Source: Bifidobacteriaceae bacterium (GTDB taxonomy: Bacteria > Actinomycetota > Actinomycetes > Actinomycetales > WQXJ01). From it: a stretch of DNA of 9,679 bases. Each line of letters starts with the position of its first letter. Position 1 is the stretch's first letter. A model generated the notes under the pieces. The model was given only the letters and a program-made list of their open reading frames with translations, was not told the DNA's origin and did no database searches. A program made the position numbers and the translations under genes. Where the stretch lies: NCBI GenBank assembly GCA_031265345.1, contig JAISCU010000103.1, positions 1 through 9,679 on the forward strand. Reading direction: 5' to 3'. Of the stretch, positions 1-9,464 are shown piece after piece.

Positions 1-345
1 GACCAGGGCGGCGTGGCGTATGGGAACACGTTCCTCGAGGCGACCACTGACGCAGGGTGCGTGGCCCAGGCCAAGCTGGCCGGCGCTGTGAAGGAAGCCG
101 GCGGCCAGACGCCGACAGACGCCGCGAGCCAGAACCCGACCTCCGGCGCGGTCGCGGCCTCGGGTGGCCCGGGAACTCCGGGAACTTCTCCCGCCAGTGC
201 TTTGGAGCGCACTGGCGCGTCCAGTGCGCCGGTCGCTGGTTTCGGCATGGTGCTGGTCGCAGCGGGATTCGCCTTGTGCGCGCGTCGCGCGCGCGGGCGT
301 CTGGGCAGGCGCACCGGACAGCATGCACGGGTAACCGGGGCGTGA
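1..345 (+). CDS. C-terminal end of a putative sortase-anchored surface protein (partial; T1)
   Basis: The frame is open from base 1, so the gene begins upstream of the window; the GTG at 13 is internal. The 114 visible residues are, in order: the end of a probable folded domain (about 1-34), a Gly/Pro/Ser/Thr/Ala-rich linker (35-66) of the kind that spans a cell wall, the motif LERTG (68-72), a hydrophobic stretch (about 77-93) ending in Cys, and an Arg-rich tail (95-110). This is the layout of a cell-wall sorting signal (LPXTG class; actinobacterial class E sortases prefer LAXTG). A Glu at position 2 of the motif is unusual, and the charged tail is longer than normal. If functional, a sortase would cleave T-G and attach the protein to peptidoglycan. 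The stop lies 6 nt before the next gene. The last 45 residues are repeated almost unchanged in the gene at 1663. The ectodomain, and so the function, is not visible. Confidence 0.75.
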   Translation, partial: DQGGVAYGNTFLEATTDAGCVAQAKLAGAVKEAGGQTPTDAASQNPTSGAVAASGGPGTPGTSPASALERTGASSAPVAGFGMVLVAAGFALCARRARGRLGRRTGQHARVTGA

Positions 346-351
346 CTTCTG

Positions 352-1089
352 ATGGATTGTTCGGCGGTTGATGCGCTGCTTCGCGGGTGGCTGGGGTCGG
401 CTGTCGGCCGCCTGGCACGTTGGTTTGGGCCCGGCCGAACTGCTCGAGCTTTCGACTCGGGCGGCTCCCTGGTCGCGTGGGGTCTTGCGGGCTCGGAGAC
501 CGGGTTGACAGATTGGGTGTTGTGGGACACCGATCAGGGGGCGACCGCTGGCAAAGCCCGCGACTCCGACGGGCACGAGCGACCCGACTGGGAGAACCGT
601 GATGCTAGCTGCCCCGGGCATGATGGCGGGTCTTACGACCTCGATGGTTCGGGGCGACGACCGGGCACGGGACTCAGGCTAGTCTCCCTGATTGTTGGTG
701 TGCCGGCTACCCTGGCAGCCGCGTTCCTTGTCTTCTCCCTCTGGGTTCTTTCGTCACTCCCGCCGTCCGCGTCTGATGCCTCAAGCGCGCTGATAGAACT
801 CATACCGGCCGCAGGCGTCTTGTTTGTAGCGTTCAACCTGGCGATCGCACAAGTCGCTCCCGCGTGGGTGATCGTGGTCTACGCCTTCGCCGCCGCCACC
901 GCAGTGAATCTGCCGTTTCTGTCGCCAATGGTCCACCATGGAGGCGAAGGGTTCCTCGTCTGGTCCTGGGTGTCGGGGATTGTTGGGCTCCTCGGGACCG
1001 CTTTCGGGGTGCGCCCGCTTCGCAGACCGGAGCCCAAGCAGGATGAGGGCTGCCCGGGGCCGGCGCCGCCAATGAACACGGGCGAGTAG
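352..1089 (+). CDS. Four-helix membrane protein, B module with a degraded A-module N-terminus (B1)
   Basis: This is a 245-residue member of the local paralogous family; I do not recognise it from any known family. Residues about 107-245 form the B module: predicted helices near 109-132, 151-168, 171-190 and 200-218, the signature VVYAFAAATAVNLP in helix 3, GTAFGVRPL after helix 4, and a Pro-rich acidic end. Residues 1-106 lack a hydrophobic helix but align in frame with the end of the A module of the genes at 1960 and 3407: LGSAVGRLARWFGPGRT matches their VGAAGM-LAVK-RPGRT stretch, SLVAWG matches SLMARG, and DTDQGAT matches GTDQSAT. I read this as an A-B fusion that lost most of A. The ATG at 352 is chosen because a TGA-6 nt-ATG junction is shared with the other two A-B genes; the Shine-Dalgarno match is poor. 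It may be expressed as a B-only protein or be decaying. Confidence 0.65.
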   Translation: MDCSAVDALLRGWLGSAVGRLARWFGPGRTARAFDSGGSLVAWGLAGSETGLTDWVLWDTDQGATAGKARDSDGHERPDWENRDASCPGHDGGSYDLDGSGRRPGTGLRLVSLIVGVPATLAAAFLVFSLWVLSSLPPSASDASSALIELIPAAGVLFVAFNLAIAQVAPAWVIVVYAFAAATAVNLPFLSPMVHHGGEGFLVWSWVSGIVGLLGTAFGVRPLRRPEPKQDEGCPGPAPPMNTGE

Positions 1090-1091
1090 GC

Positions 1092-1097
1092 AGAAGG
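1092..1097 (+). promoter_or_regulatory. Ribosome binding site of B2
   Basis: AGAAGG lies 6 nt before the ATG at 1104. It is one of the better Shine-Dalgarno matches in the array and supports the ATGGAT start that all stand-alone B genes share in the form ATGGAY. Confidence 0.55.
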
Positions 1098-1103
1098 CGT
1101 CAT

Positions 1104-1649
1104 ATGGATACCAGGTTGCCGGCGGCCGGGGATAAGCCTGAGGACGTTGCGGGTGTTGGCAAGGCCGCTGGCCGCGCTGGCGGCCCGGAGCAGAAGACGG
1201 GCGATCTGGGCCACTCCGACGATTCGGAGCGGCGGCCAGATCCGGGGTTTAGGTTCTTGTACCTGCTTGTCGGGGTGCCGGCTATCCTGGTCGCGGGCCT
1301 TCTTGTCGTGCTCCTCGTGGCTTACTCGTCGTTCGTGACCAGTGGCAGGGCGGTAGAACTCACGCTGATCTTGGGCGTCTTGTTTGTGGTGTTCAACCTG
1401 CCGATCGCGCAACTCACCCCTGTGTGGGTGATTGTGGTGTATGCCGTTGCCGCCAGCACCGCCGTCAATCTGCCGCTCTTTTCCCTATTGGTCCGCCATG
1501 GTGGTGCTGGCACCGTTGTGTGGTCCTGGGCGTTGGGGATTGTCGGGTTGGCGGGCACAGCCCTCGGGATGCGCTCGTTTCACGCACCGGGAGCCAAGTC
1601 GCGCAAGGGCCAGCCCGACCCGCTGCCGCCGACGAGCACGGACGAATAG
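1104..1649 (+). CDS. Four-helix membrane protein, stand-alone B module (B2)
   Basis: A 181-residue integral membrane protein of unknown function. Residues 1-48 are hydrophilic and charged with no signal peptide. Predicted helices follow at about 51-74, 87-103, 107-127 and 137-156. Family marks are VGVPA (56-60), VVYAVAASTAVNLP (111-124), GTALGMRS after helix 4, and the end PLPPTSTDE. With four helices and a hydrophilic N-terminus, both ends are probably cytoplasmic. The N-terminus resembles that of the gene at 4829 (MDT/MDI start, then G-E/D-K/E-P-E/D-DV). The ATG at 1104 is supported by AGAAGG upstream. It sits 14 nt after the previous stop and 13 nt before the next start, so it is probably cotranscribed. 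Its first loop is almost identical to that of B3, and its HGG-G-VWSW loop matches B1. Confidence 0.8.
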   Translation: MDTRLPAAGDKPEDVAGVGKAAGRAGGPEQKTGDLGHSDDSERRPDPGFRFLYLLVGVPAILVAGLLVVLLVAYSSFVTSGRAVELTLILGVLFVVFNLPIAQLTPVWVIVVYAVAASTAVNLPLFSLLVRHGGAGTVVWSWALGIVGLAGTALGMRSFHAPGAKSRKGQPDPLPPTSTDE

Positions 1650-1662
1650 AACGGCGCAGGCC

Positions 1663-1953
1663 ATGGACACGGACGACGCCAGCCCTAGCCCGACCGGTGG
1701 CGCCTCGGGCGCTTCGGACCGATCGTCGACCGTCGGCGCGGGCGGCTCATCCGGCCGGCCGTCTCGCATTGACGCTTTGGAGCGCACTGGGGTGTCTAGT
1801 GCGCCGATGGCTGGTTTGAGCTTCATCCTCGTGGTGGCGGGATTGGCGCTCTGTGCGCGCCACGGGCGTGGACGGCTCACAAGGCGGGTCGGGCAGCACG
1901 CGCGGAGCGGCTGGGTAGCGACAGAGGCATCGGATCGCCCGGGCGACGGTTGA
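1663..1953 (+). CDS. Small protein with an orphan LERTG sorting-signal-like tail (T2)
   Basis: A 96-residue protein starting MDT. Residues 1-37 are Ser/Gly/Thr-rich with no hydrophobic signal peptide. Residues 39-43 are LERTG, about 48-65 form one hydrophobic segment ending in Cys, and 66-81 are Arg-rich. The tail is a close copy of the end of T1: 17 identical bases at 199-215 and 1774-1790, and the cytoplasmic tail RL-RR-GQHAR is kept. Without a Sec signal it should not become a normal sortase substrate, and it may instead be a tail-anchored membrane protein. The start context (ATGGACAC, 13 nt after a TAG) is that of the B genes, so the gene looks like a fusion of a B-type 5' end with the 3' end of a T1-like gene. 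Its stop is 6 nt before the next ATG. Coding is supported by the preserved frame relative to T1; function is unknown. Confidence 0.6.
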   Translation: MDTDDASPSPTGGASGASDRSSTVGAGGSSGRPSRIDALERTGVSSAPMAGLSFILVVAGLALCARHGRGRLTRRVGQHARSGWVATEASDRPGDG

Positions 1954-1962
1954 CGCGTGATG
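1951..1962 (+). other. Conserved TGA-6 nt-ATG junction that decides the start of the A-B gene
   Basis: The stop TGA (1951-1953), six bases and ATG (1960) repeat the spacing seen at 343-354 and 3398-3409, although the six bases themselves differ. This favours ATG 1960 over the GTG at 1957 as the start of the A-B gene and suggests translational coupling from the upstream T gene. Confidence 0.55.
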
Positions 1963-3255
1963 GATGACTGGTGGGAAGTGCTGGTGCGCGGCAAGCCGAC
2001 GTGCTGGCTCCGGCACGGCCGGACTGTTCTGGCGGCCTCAGGGGTGATGTTCGCGGCTTTGACGGTGGGGGTCGAGGCCGCCGGGCGGCGTGGACACGCC
2101 TTTCCGTTGTGGCTGGCGCTCATCGGATGGCTGGTTGTGGCGGCCTTGGCGGCAGCAGGGACGGTCCTGTGGTGGGTCAATGGACGCCTGCCAGATGTGA
2201 GCCGGGAAGCGGCGCGGCGGGCCGGGGAGGTCGATCGGATTGCTTCGCGGGTCGTGTGGGGCCTGATGGGTGCGGCGGCGTACCCGCTGTTCGTGGTCGG
2301 GGTGTTCGGTGCCGCTGGAGGGCCGTGCGCCTCAGCGCGGGAGGCCTCGGGCGACGCTTGTGTCTTCGTCGGCGGAGCCGGGGCGGTGGCCGTGGTTGTA
2401 GGGCTGGTGGCAGCCTTCGCGCTGGCGCGTCGAGCGGCCGCTTGGGCGGGGGTCGTGTATGGGGCCGGTGCCGCTTGCACGGTTTGGTACGTGGTCGACT
2501 CTGCGGGCTATTTTGACTCGCGCTACCCGTCCGGAGGCTCGTTGTCTTTGCTGGCCACCGGGGTCGTCGGCGCCGCGGGGATGACGCTGGCGGTCAAGCG
2601 CGGGCCGGGACCGGCCCGCGCGGCCGACGATGAACTCTCGCCGCGCCGGGGCACGTCTTTGATGGCGCGGGGATGCTGGGTCGTCGGCATATCGGTCGTG
2701 GCGGCCGCTGTCATGGCGGTGGCGGGTGCGGTGTGGCCGGTGACCTGGTTGGGGATCGTAGCGGGCGTCGTAGTGGTGCTAGCAGGCTGGTCTCTCGGGG
2801 ACACCAATCAAGAGGCAGGGGATGGGCGACACGGCAGGGCCGGTGGTTCGAGAGGTCGGGCTGTGACGCGAAGGATCGCCTCCCTGGTCGTCGGGGTCCC
2901 AGCCACCTTGACCGCCGGTTTCCTTATCGTGCTCCTCGTGGCTTCCGCGTCGTTCGAGACTAGTGGCAGCGCGTTGGAACTCACGCCGGTCGTGGGCGCT
3001 TTGTTGGTGGTGCTTAACGTGGTGATTGCCCGTGTCGCTCCTGTCTGGGGGATCGTGGTCTACGCCATTGCCGCCGCTACCGCCGTCACCCTTCCGCATC
3101 TTTCGCCAGGCAGGGACATCGTCTATTGGGCCTGGGCGTTGGGAGTTGTCGGGTTGCTCGGGACCGCTCTCGGGGTGCGCCCGCTTCGCGCACCGGAACC
3201 CAAGGGGCGAGAGGGCGGCTCGGAGTGGCTGCCGTCGACGAACCCGGACGAATAG
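1960..3255 (+). CDS. Polytopic membrane protein, A-B fusion of about 12 helices (AB3)
   Basis: A 431-residue protein of a family I do not recognise. The A module (1-280) has predicted helices near 22-39, 48-72, 98-119, 135-156, 161-181, 192-212, 238-258 and 261-277. It also carries a conserved CWLR-GRT motif before helix 1 and a CX10C pair (C123, C134) in the loop between helices 3 and 4, which could form a disulfide if that loop faces outside. A short charged linker (281-304) leads to the B module (about 302-431), with helices near 306-328, 342-359, 362-381 and 387-405, VVYAIAAATAVTLP, GTALGVRPL and the end NPDE. No transporter or enzyme motif is visible. The full-length paralog at 3407 aligns along the whole length, showing that both modules are under constraint. 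Start ATG 1960 is chosen from the conserved junction; GTG 1957 would add one residue. It is probably cotranscribed with T2. Confidence 0.8.
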   Translation: MDDWWEVLVRGKPTCWLRHGRTVLAASGVMFAALTVGVEAAGRRGHAFPLWLALIGWLVVAALAAAGTVLWWVNGRLPDVSREAARRAGEVDRIASRVVWGLMGAAAYPLFVVGVFGAAGGPCASAREASGDACVFVGGAGAVAVVVGLVAAFALARRAAAWAGVVYGAGAACTVWYVVDSAGYFDSRYPSGGSLSLLATGVVGAAGMTLAVKRGPGPARAADDELSPRRGTSLMARGCWVVGISVVAAAVMAVAGAVWPVTWLGIVAGVVVVLAGWSLGDTNQEAGDGRHGRAGGSRGRAVTRRIASLVVGVPATLTAGFLIVLLVASASFETSGSALELTPVVGALLVVLNVVIARVAPVWGIVVYAIAAATAVTLPHLSPGRDIVYWAWALGVVGLLGTALGVRPLRAPEPKGREGGSEWLPSTNPDE

Positions 3256-3269
3256 ACAGGGTGCGGAAC

Positions 3270-3400
3270 ATGGACACTGGGCCACAGTCGCCTAATGGAG
3301 TACTCTTCCCCGACCGAGGCACGCATTGGATGTCGCGGGTTTGGGCCTCGTATTGTGATGGTGGCCGGATTGGCGCCGGGTGGTGACGGCGGATGTTTGA
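3270..3400 (+). pseudogene. Decayed third copy of the T (sorting-tail) gene
   Basis: It starts with the shared ATGGACAC context 14 nt after the previous stop and would give MDTGPQSPNG, like the start of T2. Parts of the tail are then recoverable only by changing frame: VAGLGLVL at 3332-3355 is followed at once by TGA, MVAGLA continues at 3358-3375 in another frame, and a final stretch ending VVTADV stops at TGA 3398-3400, 6 nt before the next ATG, as in the intact copies. The LERTG region has become ARIG-like, and about 13 bases are missing after it relative to T2. An uninterrupted 38-codon frame does run from 3270 to 3386 but it has no hydrophobic segment. I read this as a pseudogene. Confidence 0.65.
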
Positions 3401-3406
3401 CAGGCG

Positions 3407-4816
3407 ATGACCAGCGATCTCAGGCAGTTCGCGACGCGCGGGCCAGCCTGCTGGCTTCGGCGTGGCCGGACCATTTTGGCGGCCGCGGGGGCGGTGTTCG
3501 CGGTTTTGATGGCGGCGATTGGGGTGGCCGGGAGCCGTGAACGGGATCTTCCGTTGGGGTTTGCGGTCATTGGATGGCTGGTTGCGCTGGGCTTGGCGAC
3601 GCTTGGGGCGGGGCTGTTGTGGGTCGGCGCACGTGCGCCCAGCGTGGATAGCGGGGCGGTCGCCGGGAGAGCAGAGGCACTGGACTGGCGTGCGTCGCGG
3701 GCTCTGTGGGGCATGGTCGGTGTGGCGGCTTACATCGTGTTCGTGATCGCTTTGTTCACGGCCGCCGGGGGGCCGTGCGCATCTCCACGCGAGGCCTCGA
3801 GCGACGCTTGCGTCTTCGCGGGCGGAAACGGGTTGTGGGTCATAGTGGTGGGGCAAGTCGCGGTCATGGTCCTGGCGCGCCGGGCAGGTGGCTTGGCGGG
3901 TGTGGCCTATGGGGCCGGCATTGCCTACACGGTTTGGTCTGTGATCGCCTCTGCGGGTTTTCTTGATTCGCGTTACGCGCACCGTGGTTCTTGGCCGTTG
4001 CTGGCCCTGGGGATCGTCGGTGCGGCGGGAATGGGGCTGGCGGTCAAGGTCCGGCCTGGACGGACGCGACATTCCGGTGGGGAACCCCCGCCGCGCCATG
4101 GCCCCTCCCTGATGGCGCGGGGGGCCTGGGTTGCGAGCGTGTCGGCTGTCGCGGGCGCTGTCTTATGGGCGGCGGGTCCCGTGTGGCTGGTAACCTCGTT
4201 CGGAATCGTTGCGGGCGTGGTGATGGTGCTGGCTGGCTCGGCGCTCAGGGGCACCGATCAATCGGCGACCACCGGCGCGGCTGGCGGAGCTGATGAGACC
4301 GATGAGACTGAACGAGATCGTTGTGGGAACGGTGGTGCCGATAGCATTGGGCGCGATGGGGCAAACGGCAACCCCGATGGTCGGGAGCGGCAGCGGGCCG
4401 TGATACTCAGAATCGTTTCCCTAGCCGTCGGTGTTCCGGCCACCATCGTCGCAGGCTTCTTTGTTCTCGTCTTTTGGGTTTATTCGGATTTGCTTGGGTC
4501 CGGTGGTGGCGTCTCCGGTTGGTTGCAAGAAGCCGCGGTGCCGGTGGGCTGGCTGCTGGTGGCGTTGAACTTGGTTGTGGGCCGGGTCGCTCGAACCCGG
4601 GTGATCGTGGTCTATGCGGTCGCCGTCGTTTCGGCCGTCTTTCTACCGTACTTGTCGTCGAGCGCAGTTGACGTGCTCGACGTCTTCTGGCCCTGGGCGT
4701 TGGGTGTGGTCGGGCTGATCGGTACCGCCTTCGGGGTCCGTCCGCTTCGCCCGCCGGGAGCCGAGCAGGGCGCAGGCCGTTTGGGGTCGGAGCCGCCGCC
4801 GAGTGCGGATGAATAG
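3407..4816 (+). CDS. Polytopic membrane protein, A-B fusion of about 12 helices (AB4)
   Basis: A 469-residue full-length paralog of the gene at 1960. The A module covers about 1-283 with CWLRRGRT (15-22), predicted helices near 22-41, 49-73, 99-120, 136-157, 161-182, 195-213, 238-258 and 261-279, and the CX10C pair at C124/C135. The linker (281-331) is longer than in AB3, acidic and Asn/Gly-rich, and holds one extra Cys (306). The B module (332-469) has VGVPAT (341-346), VVYAVAVVSAVFLP (401-414), GTAFGVRPL (439-447) and the end PSADE. Its B loop GGVSGWLQEAA is shared with B5 but not with B2 or B3. ATG 3407 keeps the TGA-6 nt-ATG spacing; the Shine-Dalgarno is weak. The stop is 12 nt before the next gene. 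The protein should lie in the cytoplasmic membrane; its role is unknown. Confidence 0.8.
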   Translation: MTSDLRQFATRGPACWLRRGRTILAAAGAVFAVLMAAIGVAGSRERDLPLGFAVIGWLVALGLATLGAGLLWVGARAPSVDSGAVAGRAEALDWRASRALWGMVGVAAYIVFVIALFTAAGGPCASPREASSDACVFAGGNGLWVIVVGQVAVMVLARRAGGLAGVAYGAGIAYTVWSVIASAGFLDSRYAHRGSWPLLALGIVGAAGMGLAVKVRPGRTRHSGGEPPPRHGPSLMARGAWVASVSAVAGAVLWAAGPVWLVTSFGIVAGVVMVLAGSALRGTDQSATTGAAGGADETDETERDRCGNGGADSIGRDGANGNPDGRERQRAVILRIVSLAVGVPATIVAGFFVLVFWVYSDLLGSGGGVSGWLQEAAVPVGWLLVALNLVVGRVARTRVIVVYAVAVVSAVFLPYLSSSAVDVLDVFWPWALGVVGLIGTAFGVRPLRPPGAEQGAGRLGSEPPPSADE

Positions 4817-4820
4817 GGCC

Positions 4821-4825
4821 GGGAG
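4821..4825 (+). promoter_or_regulatory. Ribosome binding site of B5
   Basis: GGGAG stands only 3 nt before ATG 4829, closer than usual. The surrounding GAATAG-(8-14 nt)-ATGGAY layout recurs at 1647 and 3253 and is the standard junction of this array. Confidence 0.4.
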
Positions 4826-4828
4826 CAT

Positions 4829-5482
4829 ATGGATATCGAGTCGCAGACGATCGGCGAAGAGCCCGACGACGTCGGGGGCGCCGCGCACGCCGCGGGGACA
4901 GGTAGGGAACGAGGGCCCGGACAGTCCCGGCAGAAGGCGGGTGATGCCGGTGCCTCGGGGCCCGCTGGACACGGCGACGGGTCTGGGCACCCTCTGCGGG
5001 ATAAGGGTGATGCCGATGACGCCGGGAAGGGTGGAGACGCTCGTGATCCTCGCCAGGGGCGCACTGAGGGGTTCAGGTTTGTTGCTCTGTGTGTCGGTGT
5101 GTCAGCGACCCTGGTAGCTGGTTGGTTCGTCTTCCTCCTCTGGGCTCTTTCGGGTTGGCTTGGATTCGAGGGCGGCGTCTCCGGCTGGTTGCAACAAGCT
5201 GCGCCGCCGGTCGGCATCCTATTGGCGTTGCTGAACCTAGCCATCGCTCGTGTCGCTCCCGCGTGGCTGGTCGTGGTCTACGCGGTCGCGACGGCGACCG
5301 CCGTGACTTTACCGTACCTGTCGCCAGGGGGAGACATTGTCTACCGGGCCTGGGCTCTTGGGCTGATTGGCATGCTGGGGACTGCCTTCGGCCTCCGCCC
5401 ACTCCAGTCGCCCGGCGCCAAGCAAGATGAGGACTATCCGGAGCCGCTGCCGCCGGCGTCGGCGAACGCGGACGAAGAGTAA
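4829..5482 (+). CDS. Four-helix membrane protein, stand-alone B module (B5)
   Basis: A 217-residue member of the B family with the longest N-terminal extension: residues 1-80 are hydrophilic, Gly/Asp-rich, low in complexity and probably disordered. Predicted helices are at about 83-108, 126-143, 145-164 and 172-190. Marks are CVGVSAT (88-94), VVYAVATATAVTLP (149-162), GTAFGLRPL and the acidic end NADEE. The GGVSGWLQQAA loop pairs it with B4, while LSPGGDIVYRAWALG pairs it with B3. The start at ATG 4829 is supported by the MDI/MDT beginning common to the stand-alone genes. It lies 12 nt after AB4 and 11 nt before B6, consistent with one transcript. No known family is recognised. Confidence 0.8.
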   Translation: MDIESQTIGEEPDDVGGAAHAAGTGRERGPGQSRQKAGDAGASGPAGHGDGSGHPLRDKGDADDAGKGGDARDPRQGRTEGFRFVALCVGVSATLVAGWFVFLLWALSGWLGFEGGVSGWLQQAAPPVGILLALLNLAIARVAPAWLVVVYAVATATAVTLPYLSPGGDIVYRAWALGLIGMLGTAFGLRPLQSPGAKQDEDYPEPLPPASANADEE

Positions 5483-5487
5483 GGAAG
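5483..5487 (+). promoter_or_regulatory. Ribosome binding site of B6
   Basis: GGAAG directly follows the TAA stop of B5 and stands 6 nt before ATG 5494. It is a good Shine-Dalgarno match that fixes this start. Confidence 0.55.
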
Positions 5488-5493
5488 CGACGC

Positions 5494-5991
5494 ATGGACA
5501 CCGGATCGGGTGCGGGCAGCGAGGGGGCCGATGGCGCTGACCGGCCTCAGCCACGTCGGCCGCAGGCCTTGGCAATCAGGATGGCGTTCATAGCAGCGGG
5601 CTTGTTGGCGGTCACGATCTCCGGATGTTTGATCGTCCTGATCATGATTGACGCGTCCGGATCGCTTTGGGGCACGGGATACTTGACCGGAGCGCAGCAG
5701 GCCATGCCGGTTGTGGGGATCTTGCTGGTGGTCTTCAATGTGATTATCGCCCAGGTCGCTCGTGTGTGGGTGCTCGCCGTTTATTCGGTTGCCGCCGCCA
5801 CTGCGGTCAACCTGCCGTACCTCGAGGCGGCCGAACGTCATGGGATGGTTGGACTCATAGCGTGTTCCTGGGTCCTGGGCATGGCTGGCATGCTTGGAAC
5901 CGCTTTTGGGATTCGCTCTTTCCGCCCGTGGGACGCCAGACCGCCGAAGGACGGTCACGATCCGCAGCCACCGACGGACGCGCACGAATAG
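5494..5991 (+). CDS. Four-helix membrane protein, divergent stand-alone B module (B6)
   Basis: A 165-residue protein and the last gene of the array. A short hydrophilic N-terminus (1-27) precedes predicted helices at about 29-52, 71-88, 91-110 and 119-140. It is the most diverged B copy: the VGVPAT motif of helix 1 is replaced by AAGLLAVT, and the loop after helix 1 is SLWGTGYLTGAQQA. Helix 3 (VYSVAAATAVNLPYL) and GTAFGIRSF after helix 4 still place it firmly in the family, and the end PTDAHE keeps the acidic terminus. The start ATG 5494 has a clear GGAAG. It is followed by 174 non-coding bases before the permease, so it probably ends the array's coding part. Function unknown. Confidence 0.8.
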   Translation: MDTGSGAGSEGADGADRPQPRRPQALAIRMAFIAAGLLAVTISGCLIVLIMIDASGSLWGTGYLTGAQQAMPVVGILLVVFNVIIAQVARVWVLAVYSVAAATAVNLPYLEAAERHGMVGLIACSWVLGMAGMLGTAFGIRSFRPWDARPPKDGHDPQPPTDAHE

Positions 5992-6032
5992 GCGGGAGCG
6001 CCGAGGCGAAGTCACGCGCCCTGCTCCAGCCG

Positions 6033-6066
6033 AACCACAATTGGGGCCCGTCACCAAATTGTGGTT
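6033..6066. promoter_or_regulatory. Perfect 10-bp inverted repeat, candidate operator or stem-loop
   Basis: AACCACAATT at 6033-6042 is the exact reverse complement of AATTGTGGTT at 6057-6066, with a 14-nt GC-rich spacer. The arms are AT-rich inside very GC-rich DNA and lie in the only sizeable gap between genes, about 100 nt upstream of the permease. No T-run follows, so an intrinsic terminator is less likely than a regulator-binding dyad, but a terminator or processing stem for the array transcript remains possible. Confidence 0.45.
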
Positions 6067-6128
6067 TGCCGGGGCCGGCGGGGTCCCGCGCCAACGCGGC
6101 CCAGCCCGGAGCGCCAGAGACGACCAAG

Positions 6129-6150
6129 CGGCATCGTCCAAGTGATGCCG
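6129..6150 (+). other. Short stem-loop in the permease leader
   Basis: CGGCATC (6129-6135) pairs perfectly with GATGCCG (6144-6150) around an 8-nt loop and ends 15 nt before the GTG start of the permease. It is followed by TAATAGG but no T-run. It could be a leader hairpin; a 7-bp stem in GC-rich DNA can also arise by chance. The rest of the gap shows no convincing promoter. Confidence 0.3.
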
Positions 6151-6165
6151 TAATAGGCTGGTCCG

Positions 6166-8274
6166 GTGGTGGATGTGATGGCGACGCTGGGGCGCCTGGT
6201 GATGGGGCGGCCGACGCGCGAGTTCGCGCCGCGGGCCAAACCCCAGCCGCTGCGCATCCGCTACGCGCTGCCGCTGCTGGCGCCGGACGCGCTCAGCTCG
6301 GTGGCCTACGCGCCGGACGAGATCCTGCTGACCCTGGCCGCCGCCGGGCTGGTGGGCGTCAACCTGTCGCCGTGGGTCGGGCTGGCCATCGCGGCGGTCA
6401 TGGCGGTGGTGATCGCTTCCTACCGCCAGACCATCAAGGAGTACCCGGAGGGAGGCGGCGACTACGCCGTGGCCAGGGAGAACCTCGGCTCGCTGGCCGG
6501 AGGGCTGGTCGGGGGAGCCGCGATGGTCGATTCGCTGCTGACGGTGGCCGTGTCGGTGTCATGCGGGGCGCAATACCTGGCGGCGATCGTCCCCGCGGTA
6601 GAGGCGCACACCCAGGCGGTCGCGGTGGGCCTGGTCGCGATCATCACGGTGGCCTCGTTGCGCGGGCTCAAGATTCTCGACACCACCGTGGTCGTGGCGG
6701 TCTACGCGTTCATTGCGGCCCTCGGCGTGACGGCGCTGGTGGGCGGCATCGAGTCGCTCGCGGGGACGTTGGGGCCGTCCCCGACCGAAGGCCTGGAACT
6801 GGTCCCGGCCACGGGCTTCCAACATGGAGCGACCTCCCTGGCCGTGGCCTTCCTGGCCCTCCGGGCCTTCTCTTCCGGAGCGGTCGCCCTGACCGGGGTG
6901 CAGACCATCTCGACCGGGGTGCGCCGGTTCCGCGACCCGAAGCCCCGCAACGCCGCCAGGTCGTTGTCCTTCCTGGGACTCGCTTGCGCGGCGCTGCTGA
7001 TAGGCACCCTGGTGCTGGCCGATCGGGTCGGAGCGGTTTTCGTGGCCGATCCAGCCGACGAACTGCGCTACGCCTTCTCCGGCCAGCCGGTGCCGGAGGA
7101 CTTCCACCTCGACCCCGTCTGGGCACAGATCGCCCAGACCGTCTTCGCTGGCGCGCGGCCCGTGTATGTGCTGGTCATAGCACTGGTCGGGCTGCTGTTG
7201 ATCCTGGCCGCCTCGAGCGCGTTCCGGTGGGTGCCGGCCCTCATGTCGATGCTGGCCCGCGACGAGTTCCTGCCCAAGCAGTTCTACCGGCGGTCGGACC
7301 GGAGGGTGGCGGCGCACGGGATCGTGACCCTGGGGATCGGCTCAGCGGCGTTGATCCTAGTCATGGGGGCGTCGGTGACGCGCCTGGTCCAGTTGTACAT
7401 TGTGGGCGTCTTCTTGTCCTTCACCATCTCGCAGTTGGGCATGTTGCGGCACTGGAACGGGAAGCTGCCCCTCGCCAAGACCGCGTTGGAGCGCCGCCGT
7501 ATCCTCGGGTCCCGGGCGGTCAACGCGGTCGGGCTGGCGCTGACCGCCGTCGCGCTGGTGATAGTGGTCATCACCAAGTTCACGCACGGCGCCTGGATCT
7601 CGCTCGGCCTGGTGGCGGGCGCGTTCTGGGCGATGGTTTCGATCCGCCGCCACTACCGTCGGGTCGCGGCCGAGCTGAAGCTCCCGGTCGGGGACCGCAC
7701 CGACCTCGGCCTGCCCAGCCGCGTCCATGTGATTGTGCTGGTCAGCGCCATGAACCGGGCGACCGCTCGGGCATTGGCGTACGCCCGTGCGACCCGGCCC
7801 GCCAGTCTCGAGGCGCTCAGCGTGGCGGTCGACATGGCTTCTGTCTGGGAACTGCGGAGGGGCTGGGACCGGGCGAACGTGCCGGTCACGCTCCGCATCC
7901 TCGATTCACCCAGCCGCGAGATCACCCGGCCCCTGATCGACCACGTCACGGCCCTGCGCCGCCGCGCGCCGCGCGACATGGTGGTGCTGTACATCCCCGA
8001 GAAGGTGGTCCGCCACTGGTGGGAGCGCTGGCTCCACAACCGTTCCGCCGCCCGCCTGACCTCGCGGCTGCGGCACCTGCCGGGCGTCGTGGTGGCGACG
8101 GTGCCTTGGCAGTTGGACCCCTCGGACGATGCCGCGCGCACGGTCCGCCCCGCCGGTCGTCCCAGCGCCGGTGGGGCTGGCAGCCCGAGTGAGCCTGGCC
8201 ACCCCGGTGGGACTGCCCGCCCCGGCGCGGGTAACCTTGGTAGCCCTAATCACGTCAGCGACAGTACGGAGTGA
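6166..8274 (+). CDS. KimA-like APC-superfamily permease, probable potassium importer
   Basis: A 702-residue membrane protein. Residues about 30-500 form a 12-helix APC core with motifs of Bacillus subtilis KimA, a proton-coupled high-affinity K+ importer: DALSSVAY (41-48), SYRQTIKEYPEGGGDY (85-100), RENLG, VDSLLTVAVS (121-130), RAFSSGAVALTGV (233-245), RNAARSL, LARDEFLP (363-370) and LYIVGVFLSFTISQLGM. D41, Y48, D122, T126 and T243 fall at the spacing of the K+-site residues reported for KimA as I recall them. Residues about 516-650 are a soluble Rossmann-like, USP-type domain, as in KimA, followed by a Pro/Gly/Ser-rich tail (655-702). Mycobacterial Rv2690c is the likely actinobacterial counterpart. 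Start: GTG 6166, or ATG 6178, which gives MATLGRLVMGRP and has GGTGG upstream; both fit. It overlaps the next gene by 4 bp. The substrate is inferred from the family. Confidence 0.88.
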   Translation: MVDVMATLGRLVMGRPTREFAPRAKPQPLRIRYALPLLAPDALSSVAYAPDEILLTLAAAGLVGVNLSPWVGLAIAAVMAVVIASYRQTIKEYPEGGGDYAVARENLGSLAGGLVGGAAMVDSLLTVAVSVSCGAQYLAAIVPAVEAHTQAVAVGLVAIITVASLRGLKILDTTVVVAVYAFIAALGVTALVGGIESLAGTLGPSPTEGLELVPATGFQHGATSLAVAFLALRAFSSGAVALTGVQTISTGVRRFRDPKPRNAARSLSFLGLACAALLIGTLVLADRVGAVFVADPADELRYAFSGQPVPEDFHLDPVWAQIAQTVFAGARPVYVLVIALVGLLLILAASSAFRWVPALMSMLARDEFLPKQFYRRSDRRVAAHGIVTLGIGSAALILVMGASVTRLVQLYIVGVFLSFTISQLGMLRHWNGKLPLAKTALERRRILGSRAVNAVGLALTAVALVIVVITKFTHGAWISLGLVAGAFWAMVSIRRHYRRVAAELKLPVGDRTDLGLPSRVHVIVLVSAMNRATARALAYARATRPASLEALSVAVDMASVWELRRGWDRANVPVTLRILDSPSREITRPLIDHVTALRRRAPRDMVVLYIPEKVVRHWWERWLHNRSAARLTSRLRHLPGVVVATVPWQLDPSDDAARTVRPAGRPSAGGAGSPSEPGHPGGTARPGAGNLGSPNHVSDSTE

Positions 8275-9464
8275 GCGCCCAGATGATCGAATTGGTGGCC
8301 GGCCCTTGGGGCAACGGCGGCATTTGCGCCTGCCGCCGCGACGATGGCCCGGTGGTGCTCCTGAGCGGAGCGCTGCCGGGGGAGCGGGTCGTGGCCGAGG
8401 TCACGACCACGGCCAAGTCCTTCTGGCGCGCGCGGGTGGACCAGGTGTTGGAGCCCTCGCCCGACCGGGTCCCGCCGCCCTGGCCGCAGGGCTTGGAGCT
8501 CGGCGCCGCCGACTGGTTGCACGTCGCGCCGAAAGCGGCGCGGGCGGCCAAAGCCGACGTGGTGCTCGGATTGCTGGAGCATGCCACGGGGCTGAGGCCC
8601 TCGCTGGGGGTCGCGCCCCTGGGCGGCGGCGGCCCGCTGGGCTGGCGCACCAAGGTCGAGTTGGCAGTCAGCGAGGCTGGCCGTGCGGGCATGGTCCGCG
8701 TCGGCACGCACCAGTTCGAGCCTTTGGTCGCCATGCCCCTGGCGGTGGACGCCATCAGCGAGTTGGGCCTGTTCGACCGACGCTGGCCGCCGGGGTCGCG
8801 CCTCACCGCCGTCGCGCCGTCCGCCGGTCGGGCTTTCTGGTTGGACGATGCCGCGCGCCAGGGCCGCCGCCGCCGCGAAGTTGTCCGCGTGGCTGGCCGG
8901 GCGTACCACTACGAACTGGACGCTTTGGGCTTTTGGCAAATCCACCGGGCGGCGCCGGAGGCGCTGGCCGAGGCGGTGCTGACTGCGCTGCGCCCGCAGG
9001 CTGGCGACGCGATCTGGGACCTGTACGCCGGGGCCGGGCTGTTCACTTTGCCGTTGGCGGCGGCGGGCGCGCGGGTCAGCGCCGTGGAGGGCTCGCGCCG
9101 GGCGGTCGCGGATCTGAGGGCCAACATCAAGCGGGCCGGACTGGAGCTGGCGCGGGCCGATTCGGCGTCCGTGGCGAGGGCCTTGCGCGGCCCGTTGGGG
9201 CGGACGCGCCCCGGCGCGGTGCTGCTAGACCCGCCCCGATCCGGCGCGGGCCGGGCGGTCATGTCAGCCGTGGCCGCTGCCCGACCGTCCCGGATCGCGT
9301 ACCTGTCCTGCGAGCCCGCCGCCCTCGCCCGCGACCTGGCCGCCCTGACGGAGGCCGGGTACCAGCTGACGGGTCTGAAGGGCTTCGACCTGTTCCCCGG
9401 CACCCACCACGTCGAGATCCTGGCGCTGGTCGAGCGCCACAACCCCAAAGACGTGGTAACGTAG
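8271..9464 (+). CDS. Class I SAM-dependent RNA m5U methyltransferase-like protein (TrmA/RumA family)
   Basis: A 397-residue protein expected to methylate C5 of a uridine in rRNA or tRNA. An N-terminal TRAM RNA-binding domain covers about 6-62. The catalytic domain has FWQIH (221-225), the SAM motif DLYAGAGLFT (250-259), acidic E273, DPPRSGAG (320-327), the nucleophile C347 in YLSCEPAALARD, and E382 in GTHHVE, the expected general base. Length and order fit RumA/RlmD relatives and mycobacterial Rv2689c. Oddly, the Fe-S motif is gone: where CGGCDWQH is usual the protein reads LGAADWLH (77-84), and the distal Cys position appears to be M155; C19, C21 and C347 are its only cysteines. GTG 8271 overlaps the permease stop (GTGA), suggesting translational coupling; ATG 8283, with GGAG 11 nt upstream, is an alternative. 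The exact RNA target cannot be read from the sequence. Confidence 0.9.
   Translation: MSAQMIELVAGPWGNGGICACRRDDGPVVLLSGALPGERVVAEVTTTAKSFWRARVDQVLEPSPDRVPPPWPQGLELGAADWLHVAPKAARAAKADVVLGLLEHATGLRPSLGVAPLGGGGPLGWRTKVELAVSEAGRAGMVRVGTHQFEPLVAMPLAVDAISELGLFDRRWPPGSRLTAVAPSAGRAFWLDDAARQGRRRREVVRVAGRAYHYELDALGFWQIHRAAPEALAEAVLTALRPQAGDAIWDLYAGAGLFTLPLAAAGARVSAVEGSRRAVADLRANIKRAGLELARADSASVARALRGPLGRTRPGAVLLDPPRSGAGRAVMSAVAAARPSRIAYLSCEPAALARDLAALTEAGYQLTGLKGFDLFPGTHHVEILALVERHNPKDVVT

Follow-up and report, generated by a model that had tools for sequence, protein, structure and literature searches.

An apparently undescribed family of multi-helix membrane proteins encoded beside a putative surface-hydrolase gene in Bifidobacteriaceae

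Phospholipase-type enzymes encoded next to sets of partner genes are known from Staphylococcus and its relatives, where the phospholipase A TslA is reported to be neutralised by TilA, a protein encoded by recombining genes of variable copy number (PMC10730906). Here we analyse a complete 9,679-bp contig of a Bifidobacteriaceae bacterium (hereafter the window), which on its plus strand carries an array of genes for membrane proteins built from a C-terminal B module and, in some copies, a large A module, directly behind the 3' end of a gene for a putative surface hydrolase (S). Like TslA-TilA, the locus sets a phospholipase-type gene beside non-identical, recombining, membrane-associated partner genes; the likeness is one of gene arrangement and sequence class only, whereas the staphylococcal partner inhibits its enzyme. 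Moreover, TilA is a lipoprotein and the A/B proteins are predicted to span the membrane about 4 to 12 times, while TslA leaves the cell by type VII secretion, with small helical proteins as partners, and the S enzyme carries a sorting signal. Genes for such helical partners were not recognised by eye among the open reading frames of the window and of two related loci described below (L083 and L087), no profile search having been made for them. Because the partner proteins differ in kind, we do not file the array as a member of the TslA-TilA system.

Two further groups of described proteins bear on the upstream gene. By profile and motif blocks its relatives belong to the bacterial SGNH/GDSL hydrolases (PF13472; solved structures 4hyq and 5mal), from which they differ by combining the hydrolase with a VWA-like domain and a LERTG tail in one protein; the A/B proteins themselves are not hydrolases. 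The S fragment of the window (S0) further shares the LxxTG-hydrophobic-basic layout of LAVTG-type sortase-dependent proteins, with a sub-threshold match to the corresponding model NF058582 (16.3 bits, cut-off 27).

Six B modules and a likely homology between A and B

Six open plus-strand frames share the C-terminal B core, with the modules spanning positions 667-5988, and alignment bears out the composition given in a preliminary description of this DNA: two A-B fusions (AB3 and AB4), one protein with an A remnant (B1) and three solo B proteins (B2, B5 and B6). The cores are 42-57% identical to that of B2 and have 23 invariant columns in common. Of the signature first proposed, the GTA(F/L)G-x-R-(P/S) block and LP recur in all six, while VVYA holds in five, B6 reading AVYS; similarly, the four helices first assigned to every core emerge from a simple hydropathy scan in five of them, B5 showing two segments yet aligning over its full length. 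Seven residues (R, G, A, N, Y, G, P) never vary among the ten B cores compared, and they form no pattern suggestive of catalysis. The copies do form a row of six, as first described, but a tandem run from position 352 is too simple: the row is broken by a relic of a second S gene (S1) and by a 151-bp gap, and it is probably the tail of an operon that begins upstream of 352.

The A modules of AB3 and AB4 are 56% identical to each other, and the first ~105 residues of B1 align to the end of A minus its last helix pair. Hydropathy gives 12 segments in AB4 and 11 in AB3, whose twelfth is placed by homology with AB4. With this one helix so placed, lysines and arginines are distributed 28:5 between predicted inside and outside loops in AB3, and likewise in AB4, so that both termini of the A-B proteins are predicted to lie inside. 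The external loop after the third helix carries two cysteines, kept in all three A-B proteins. The start of AB4 is uncertain (window 3407-3645), the protein-database form having 390 aa and beginning ~79 residues later; the first two AB4 helices are alignable in AB3 and in the A-B protein of L083.

Profile-profile comparison with hhalign points to an internal repeat. The first half of the A-B protein (2+4 helices) matches the second half (2+4) with a probability of 87.8% and a score of 38.2, and helices TM3-6 of A match the B cores at 83.7% and 36.1, whereas the best of 87 controls (72 column shuffles, 2 reversals and 13 windows from an unrelated transporter) scored 31.5 and all but two fell below 23. 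Since both scores exceed those of the controls, the A-B protein probably arose when a single six-helix unit was duplicated in tandem (~2 x (2+4) helices). A would thus likely be homologous to B, and the solo B genes of the window would probably represent the four-helix core of that unit without its helix pair.

All frames are open, and the ratios of nonsynonymous to synonymous substitution (dN/dS, by NG86) are below 1 in all 28 core pairs formed by the six window cores and two from L087, ranging from 0.25 to 0.74, although many synonymous distances (dS) are high and the figures therefore rough. The top value belongs to the pair with the lowest dS (B2/AB3, dS 0.44, ratio 0.74). Ratios of 0.48 for the A modules of AB3 and AB4, 0.38 for B1 against its L087 counterpart and 0.40 for the A remnants of these two agree with the core values, and the S gene gives 0.27 for its tails and 0.16 for the single full-length pair. 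The A/B proteins are thus under purifying selection, in line with the selection at the protein level first supposed; we encountered neither a strong Pfam match nor dN/dS near 1 in all copies, the two outcomes named at the outset as speaking against a new, selected family.

The upstream S gene and its A/B neighbours

Over 110 aa the tail encoded by S0 shares 74% identity with the C-terminal end of the L087 S protein, which is 974 aa long (78% DNA identity over 332 nt), and it ends in LERTG, a hydrophobic stretch and a basic tail, a layout (LxxTG, hydrophobic helix, basic tail) found in S0, L083, L087 and the database protein P0009. The full-length S proteins of L083 (973 aa) and L087 are 60% identical. 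That of L083 matches PF13472 at 38.2 bits (cut-off 32.9) and a VWA-like domain at 22.7 bits, just below the cut-off of 23.8; PF13472 is also precomputed for seven of the eight hits of an S database search (P0008-P0014), and among solved structures the L087 protein comes closest to a phospholipase A1 (4hyq) and a lipase (5mal). With GDSYA, CHRS, GGNDAGF and FHPN blocks in all three close full-length S proteins, the S relatives are SGNH/GDSL hydrolases by profile and by their Ser, Gly/Asn and His blocks, and the window gene, visible there as its tail, is presumably one as well.

An A/B gene lies directly after S in all four loci with visible downstream DNA, one of which has a damaged S copy. In L083, 39 bp separate the 973-aa S gene from the A-B gene behind it; in L087 a B1-type gene begins 1 bp past the end of S, with another B gene next in line; and in L084 the damaged S copy precedes a gene for a 311-aa B protein with a helix pair ahead of its core, which matches the A-B profile over positions 230-452. 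No GGND block is present in the L084 S copy (3-1502), whose reading frame is interrupted ahead of the sorting signal; the B gene behind it is intact.

The two components also co-occur at the level of genomes. S matches (E 1e-10) are found in 2 of 18 family genomes, and these are the same two that yield B matches (E 0.01), namely G002, the genome of locus L002, and G008; under independence such a coincidence has a chance of 1 in 153, a figure to be read with the relatedness of the genomes in mind. In addition, the B protein P0007 and the S protein P0009 probably share one contig, since the longest contig recorded for each measures 18,395 bp. Outside the family, S matches were obtained in 3 of 149 genomes at order level, two of them matching just the SGNH region, and in 2 of 148 at class level, one matching just the VWA part; by eye, no A/B-like gene stands beside this last match.

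Distribution, recombination and genomic setting

As far as could be searched the family appears undescribed, as the preliminary description had held. None of the six window proteins has a Pfam or NCBIfam match above cut-off (best Pfam scores 10.7-14.6 bits against cut-offs of 30-31.5), PADLOC and PHROGs returned nothing for the A/B proteins at E <=0.1, the PDB gave one meaningless match for B (E 0.37) and none for A-B, and a literature search found no paper combining all terms. Against 5.8 billion proteins AB4 matched itself and AB3 and nothing else, while the four genes that lack a complete A module (B1, B2, B5 and B6) retrieved, besides three proteins encoded by the window contig itself, P0005, which equals the final 140 residues of B6 except for the start residue and is listed on a 5,698-bp contig, and P0007, a B protein from a Bifidobacteriaceae metagenome-assembled genome (MAG); this negative is a soft one, as the search scores exact-word sharers only and missed the A/B proteins of L083 and L084.

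Order-level searches matched B in 5 of 396 genomes at E 0.001 (at most 10 candidates scored per genome) and A-B in 3 of 297 at E 1e-4 (at most 5), and beyond G002 and G008 these samples gave no convincing member. Three of the five B matches, covering 46-65 of 140 columns at E 3e-4 to 7e-4, were discarded as chance; an A-B match in G141 (68 of 460 positions, E 1.8e-5) and a weak one in G002 (C237) were also set aside. Within the searches made, convincing A/B relatives come solely from Bifidobacteriaceae genomes. No credible A/B gene occurs in any of 80 loci compared for synteny around the neighbouring permease gene, scattered tblastn matches near permeases being judged chance (best E 1.9e-4), and no relative was found in plasmids (AB4 query), phages (B2) or viral contigs (B profile and S protein). 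Narrow-range orphan families of membrane proteins are, in general, common.

Within the array, AB3 looks like a mosaic copy. Of the informative sites in its first 85 alignment columns, 41 agree with B2 alone and 24 with the second B of L087 alone, and for the remaining columns the counts are 7 and 32, respectively (Fisher p 7e-6, a value flattered by a breakpoint picked by eye); a test by halves over five pairs gave this one strong signal, one at p 0.01 and three that were not significant. It is likely, too, that an older form of the locus had two S genes, because two stray S tails lie closer to P0009 than to the S gene of their own contig: S1 is 66% identical to P0009 and 57% each to S0 and the L087 S protein (over 79 aa in each case), and the last L087 frame, a start joined to an S tail, is 69% identical to P0009 and 62% to the S gene on the same contig. 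No export signal was seen by eye in S1. In a B tree B2 falls beside P0007 (93/97, below the tool's starred level), and as no branch reaches that level we claim no order of duplication.

The genes downstream of the array are assigned by Pfam to an amino-acid permease (PF13520) and an RNA uracil-methyltransferase-type enzyme (PF05958). Six Bifidobacteriaceae MAGs (L001-L006) have permeases with 75-84% identity to that of the window; for the other 74 of the 80 loci retained, the identity does not exceed 53%. Judging by the style of their isolate names, the six MAGs may come from termite guts; the isolate names Cd354 and Nc350 do not occur in a study of termite-associated Bifidobacteriaceae (PMC11707648). 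Permease and methyltransferase are 83% and 68% identical to those of G002 and 49% and 39-47% (the latter in two pieces) to those of G008, whereas the S tail reverses this affinity (74% to G008, 55% to G002). This incongruence could be accounted for if the array was horizontally transferred or if the G008 contig was mis-binned, and comparing tetranucleotides did not settle which. Third-position GC is 0.72-0.78 in the eight array frames from S0 to B6 and 0.90 in the two downstream genes (6166-9464), and in L083 likewise S and A-B rank lowest among the five genes measured (0.64 and 0.69 vs 0.72-0.82). In L001 (8629-10085) and L005 (8395-9713) two genes that by eye resemble TrkA potassium-uptake genes lie divergently upstream of the permease, a place that in the window is occupied by the array, with 5992-6165 as the intervening stretch.

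The array frames (Table 1) follow one another, in the order S0-B1-B2-S1-AB3-AB4-B5-B6, at distances of 6, 14, 13, 3, 151, 12 and 11 bp, and B6 is separated by 174 bp from the permease gene, which starts at 6166. At the DNA level a repeat family (D1) occurs six times, with 63-76% identity to the reference over 123 nt in five of these copies, and a second family (D10) has a member in the region of the gap (3228-3280) that is 66% and 75% identical to the other two. Scans for promoters (0 found, mean 0.6) and terminators (8 found, mean 5.5, sd 2.5) remained near chance.

Table 1. Features of the array in the 9,679-bp window
Feature	Positions	Strand	Description
S0	1..345	+	3' end of S gene, cut by the contig edge; hydrolase domain itself outside the window
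B1	352..1089	+	245 aa; A remnant (352-666) and B core (667-1086)
B2	1104..1649	+	Solo B, 181 aa
S1	1663..1953	+	Relic of a second S gene; its LERTG tail follows a B-like start (MDTD)
AB3	1957..3255	+	A module and B core, 432 aa; start GTG 1957 or ATG 1960
Gap, 151 bp	3256..3406	+	Short stretch resembling a B-gene start; possibly the stump of a lost copy
AB4	3407..4816	+	A module and B core, 469 aa; 12 predicted helices
B5	4829..5482	+	Solo B, 217 aa; long N-terminal tail
B6	5494..5991	+	Solo B, 165 aa; most divergent copy

A companion role and its alternatives

The upstream hydrolase gene, the likely homology of A and B and the recombination within the array go beyond the preliminary description, which offered a putative hetero-oligomer or diversifying surface antigens; the latter are unlikely as the main idea, given that only short external loops are predicted and that the long tails should lie in the cytoplasm. 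We favour instead, giving it an even chance, a reading in which the A/B proteins are membrane companions of a wall-anchored surface protein combining a VWA with a phospholipase A1-like SGNH-hydrolase domain, which they tether, mature or restrain. Duplication of one unit, a helix pair plus the four-helix B core, would have generated the membrane family; the S enzyme would be exported and, until cleavage by sortase at LERTG, would stay in the membrane through its C-terminal helix, where it would meet the A/B proteins and be tethered, matured or restrained by them beside the cell's own membrane, and unequal recombination between operon copies would have multiplied and shuffled the companions.

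Several observations weigh against this companion role or the history proposed for it. Only four loci have visible neighbours, one with a damaged S copy, and another S copy in the L083 genome (C383; L102 2-1414, minus strand) is cut downstream by the contig edge. B copies outnumber S copies in the window, and the existence of distant S proteins (P0011-P0014, 30-44% identical) gives S a wider distribution than A/B as found here. As for the shared unit, the hhalign control that reached 31.5 was an A/B shuffle, and an earlier A-B comparison using two A sequences was weak (3%, E 0.015). Finally, the termite-associated Bifidobacteriaceae genera covered by one study are reported not to encode sortase-dependent pili (PMC11707648).

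The strongest special form of a companion role is protection from the S enzyme, with the A/B proteins as immunity (self-protection) proteins against this phospholipase-like enzyme and neighbours' variants of it, and the array as an immunity set with orphan enzyme tails. Divergent copies adjoining one hydrolase gene, the relic of a second S gene in their midst and the mosaic AB3 are all consistent with such a set, as are the faster evolution of the B cores (0.25-0.74) than of S (0.16, in one full-length pair), the L084 locus with its decayed S beside an intact B, and the precedent of TslA with its tandem, recombining TilA immunity genes (PMC10730906). We nevertheless consider it unlikely, if the foremost rival: the three close full-length S proteins are 58-78% identical (against the L087 protein) with no visible polymorphism of the enzyme domain, S appears wall-anchored rather than released and has no known toxicity, and the external loops of B are predicted to be short. 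Slightly less weight still goes to the more specific proposal that the array is a recombining, polytopic membrane immunity set against wall-anchored, contact-acting phospholipases, and so a Gram-positive, sortase-based counterpart of lipase-immunity systems.

That the family is selfish or near-neutral, a lineage-specific set of recombination-born copies kept temporarily and without specific role, is doubtful in our view. Its restricted distribution, the relic S1 with the possible stump in the gap and the somewhat relaxed B2/AB3 pair would fit, but six of six frames are open with dN/dS below 1 in every one of the 28 pairs, the B1 form, A remnant included, is retained in L087 with the remnants at 0.40, and the spacing from S to the A/B gene is 1-39 bp in three loci. 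Least probable of all is that A-B is a 6+6-helix transporter for the products of the surface hydrolase, with solo B proteins as accessory or decaying copies, since the ~12 predicted helices, the two repeats in the same orientation and the inside position of both ends stand against the lack of any transporter-family match above cut-off in Pfam and NCBIfam, a sole invariant charged residue over ten B cores (an Arg just before helix 1) and the continued purifying selection on solo copies.

For the companion role that we favour, the tie between an undescribed membrane family and a defined partner gene makes function testable. The array would show how a single helix unit can be duplicated, fused, trimmed and shuffled along a row of genes, and, if it is true that the A/B proteins hold a surface phospholipase or protect against it, the locus would constitute a surface-anchored version of an enzyme-companion system.

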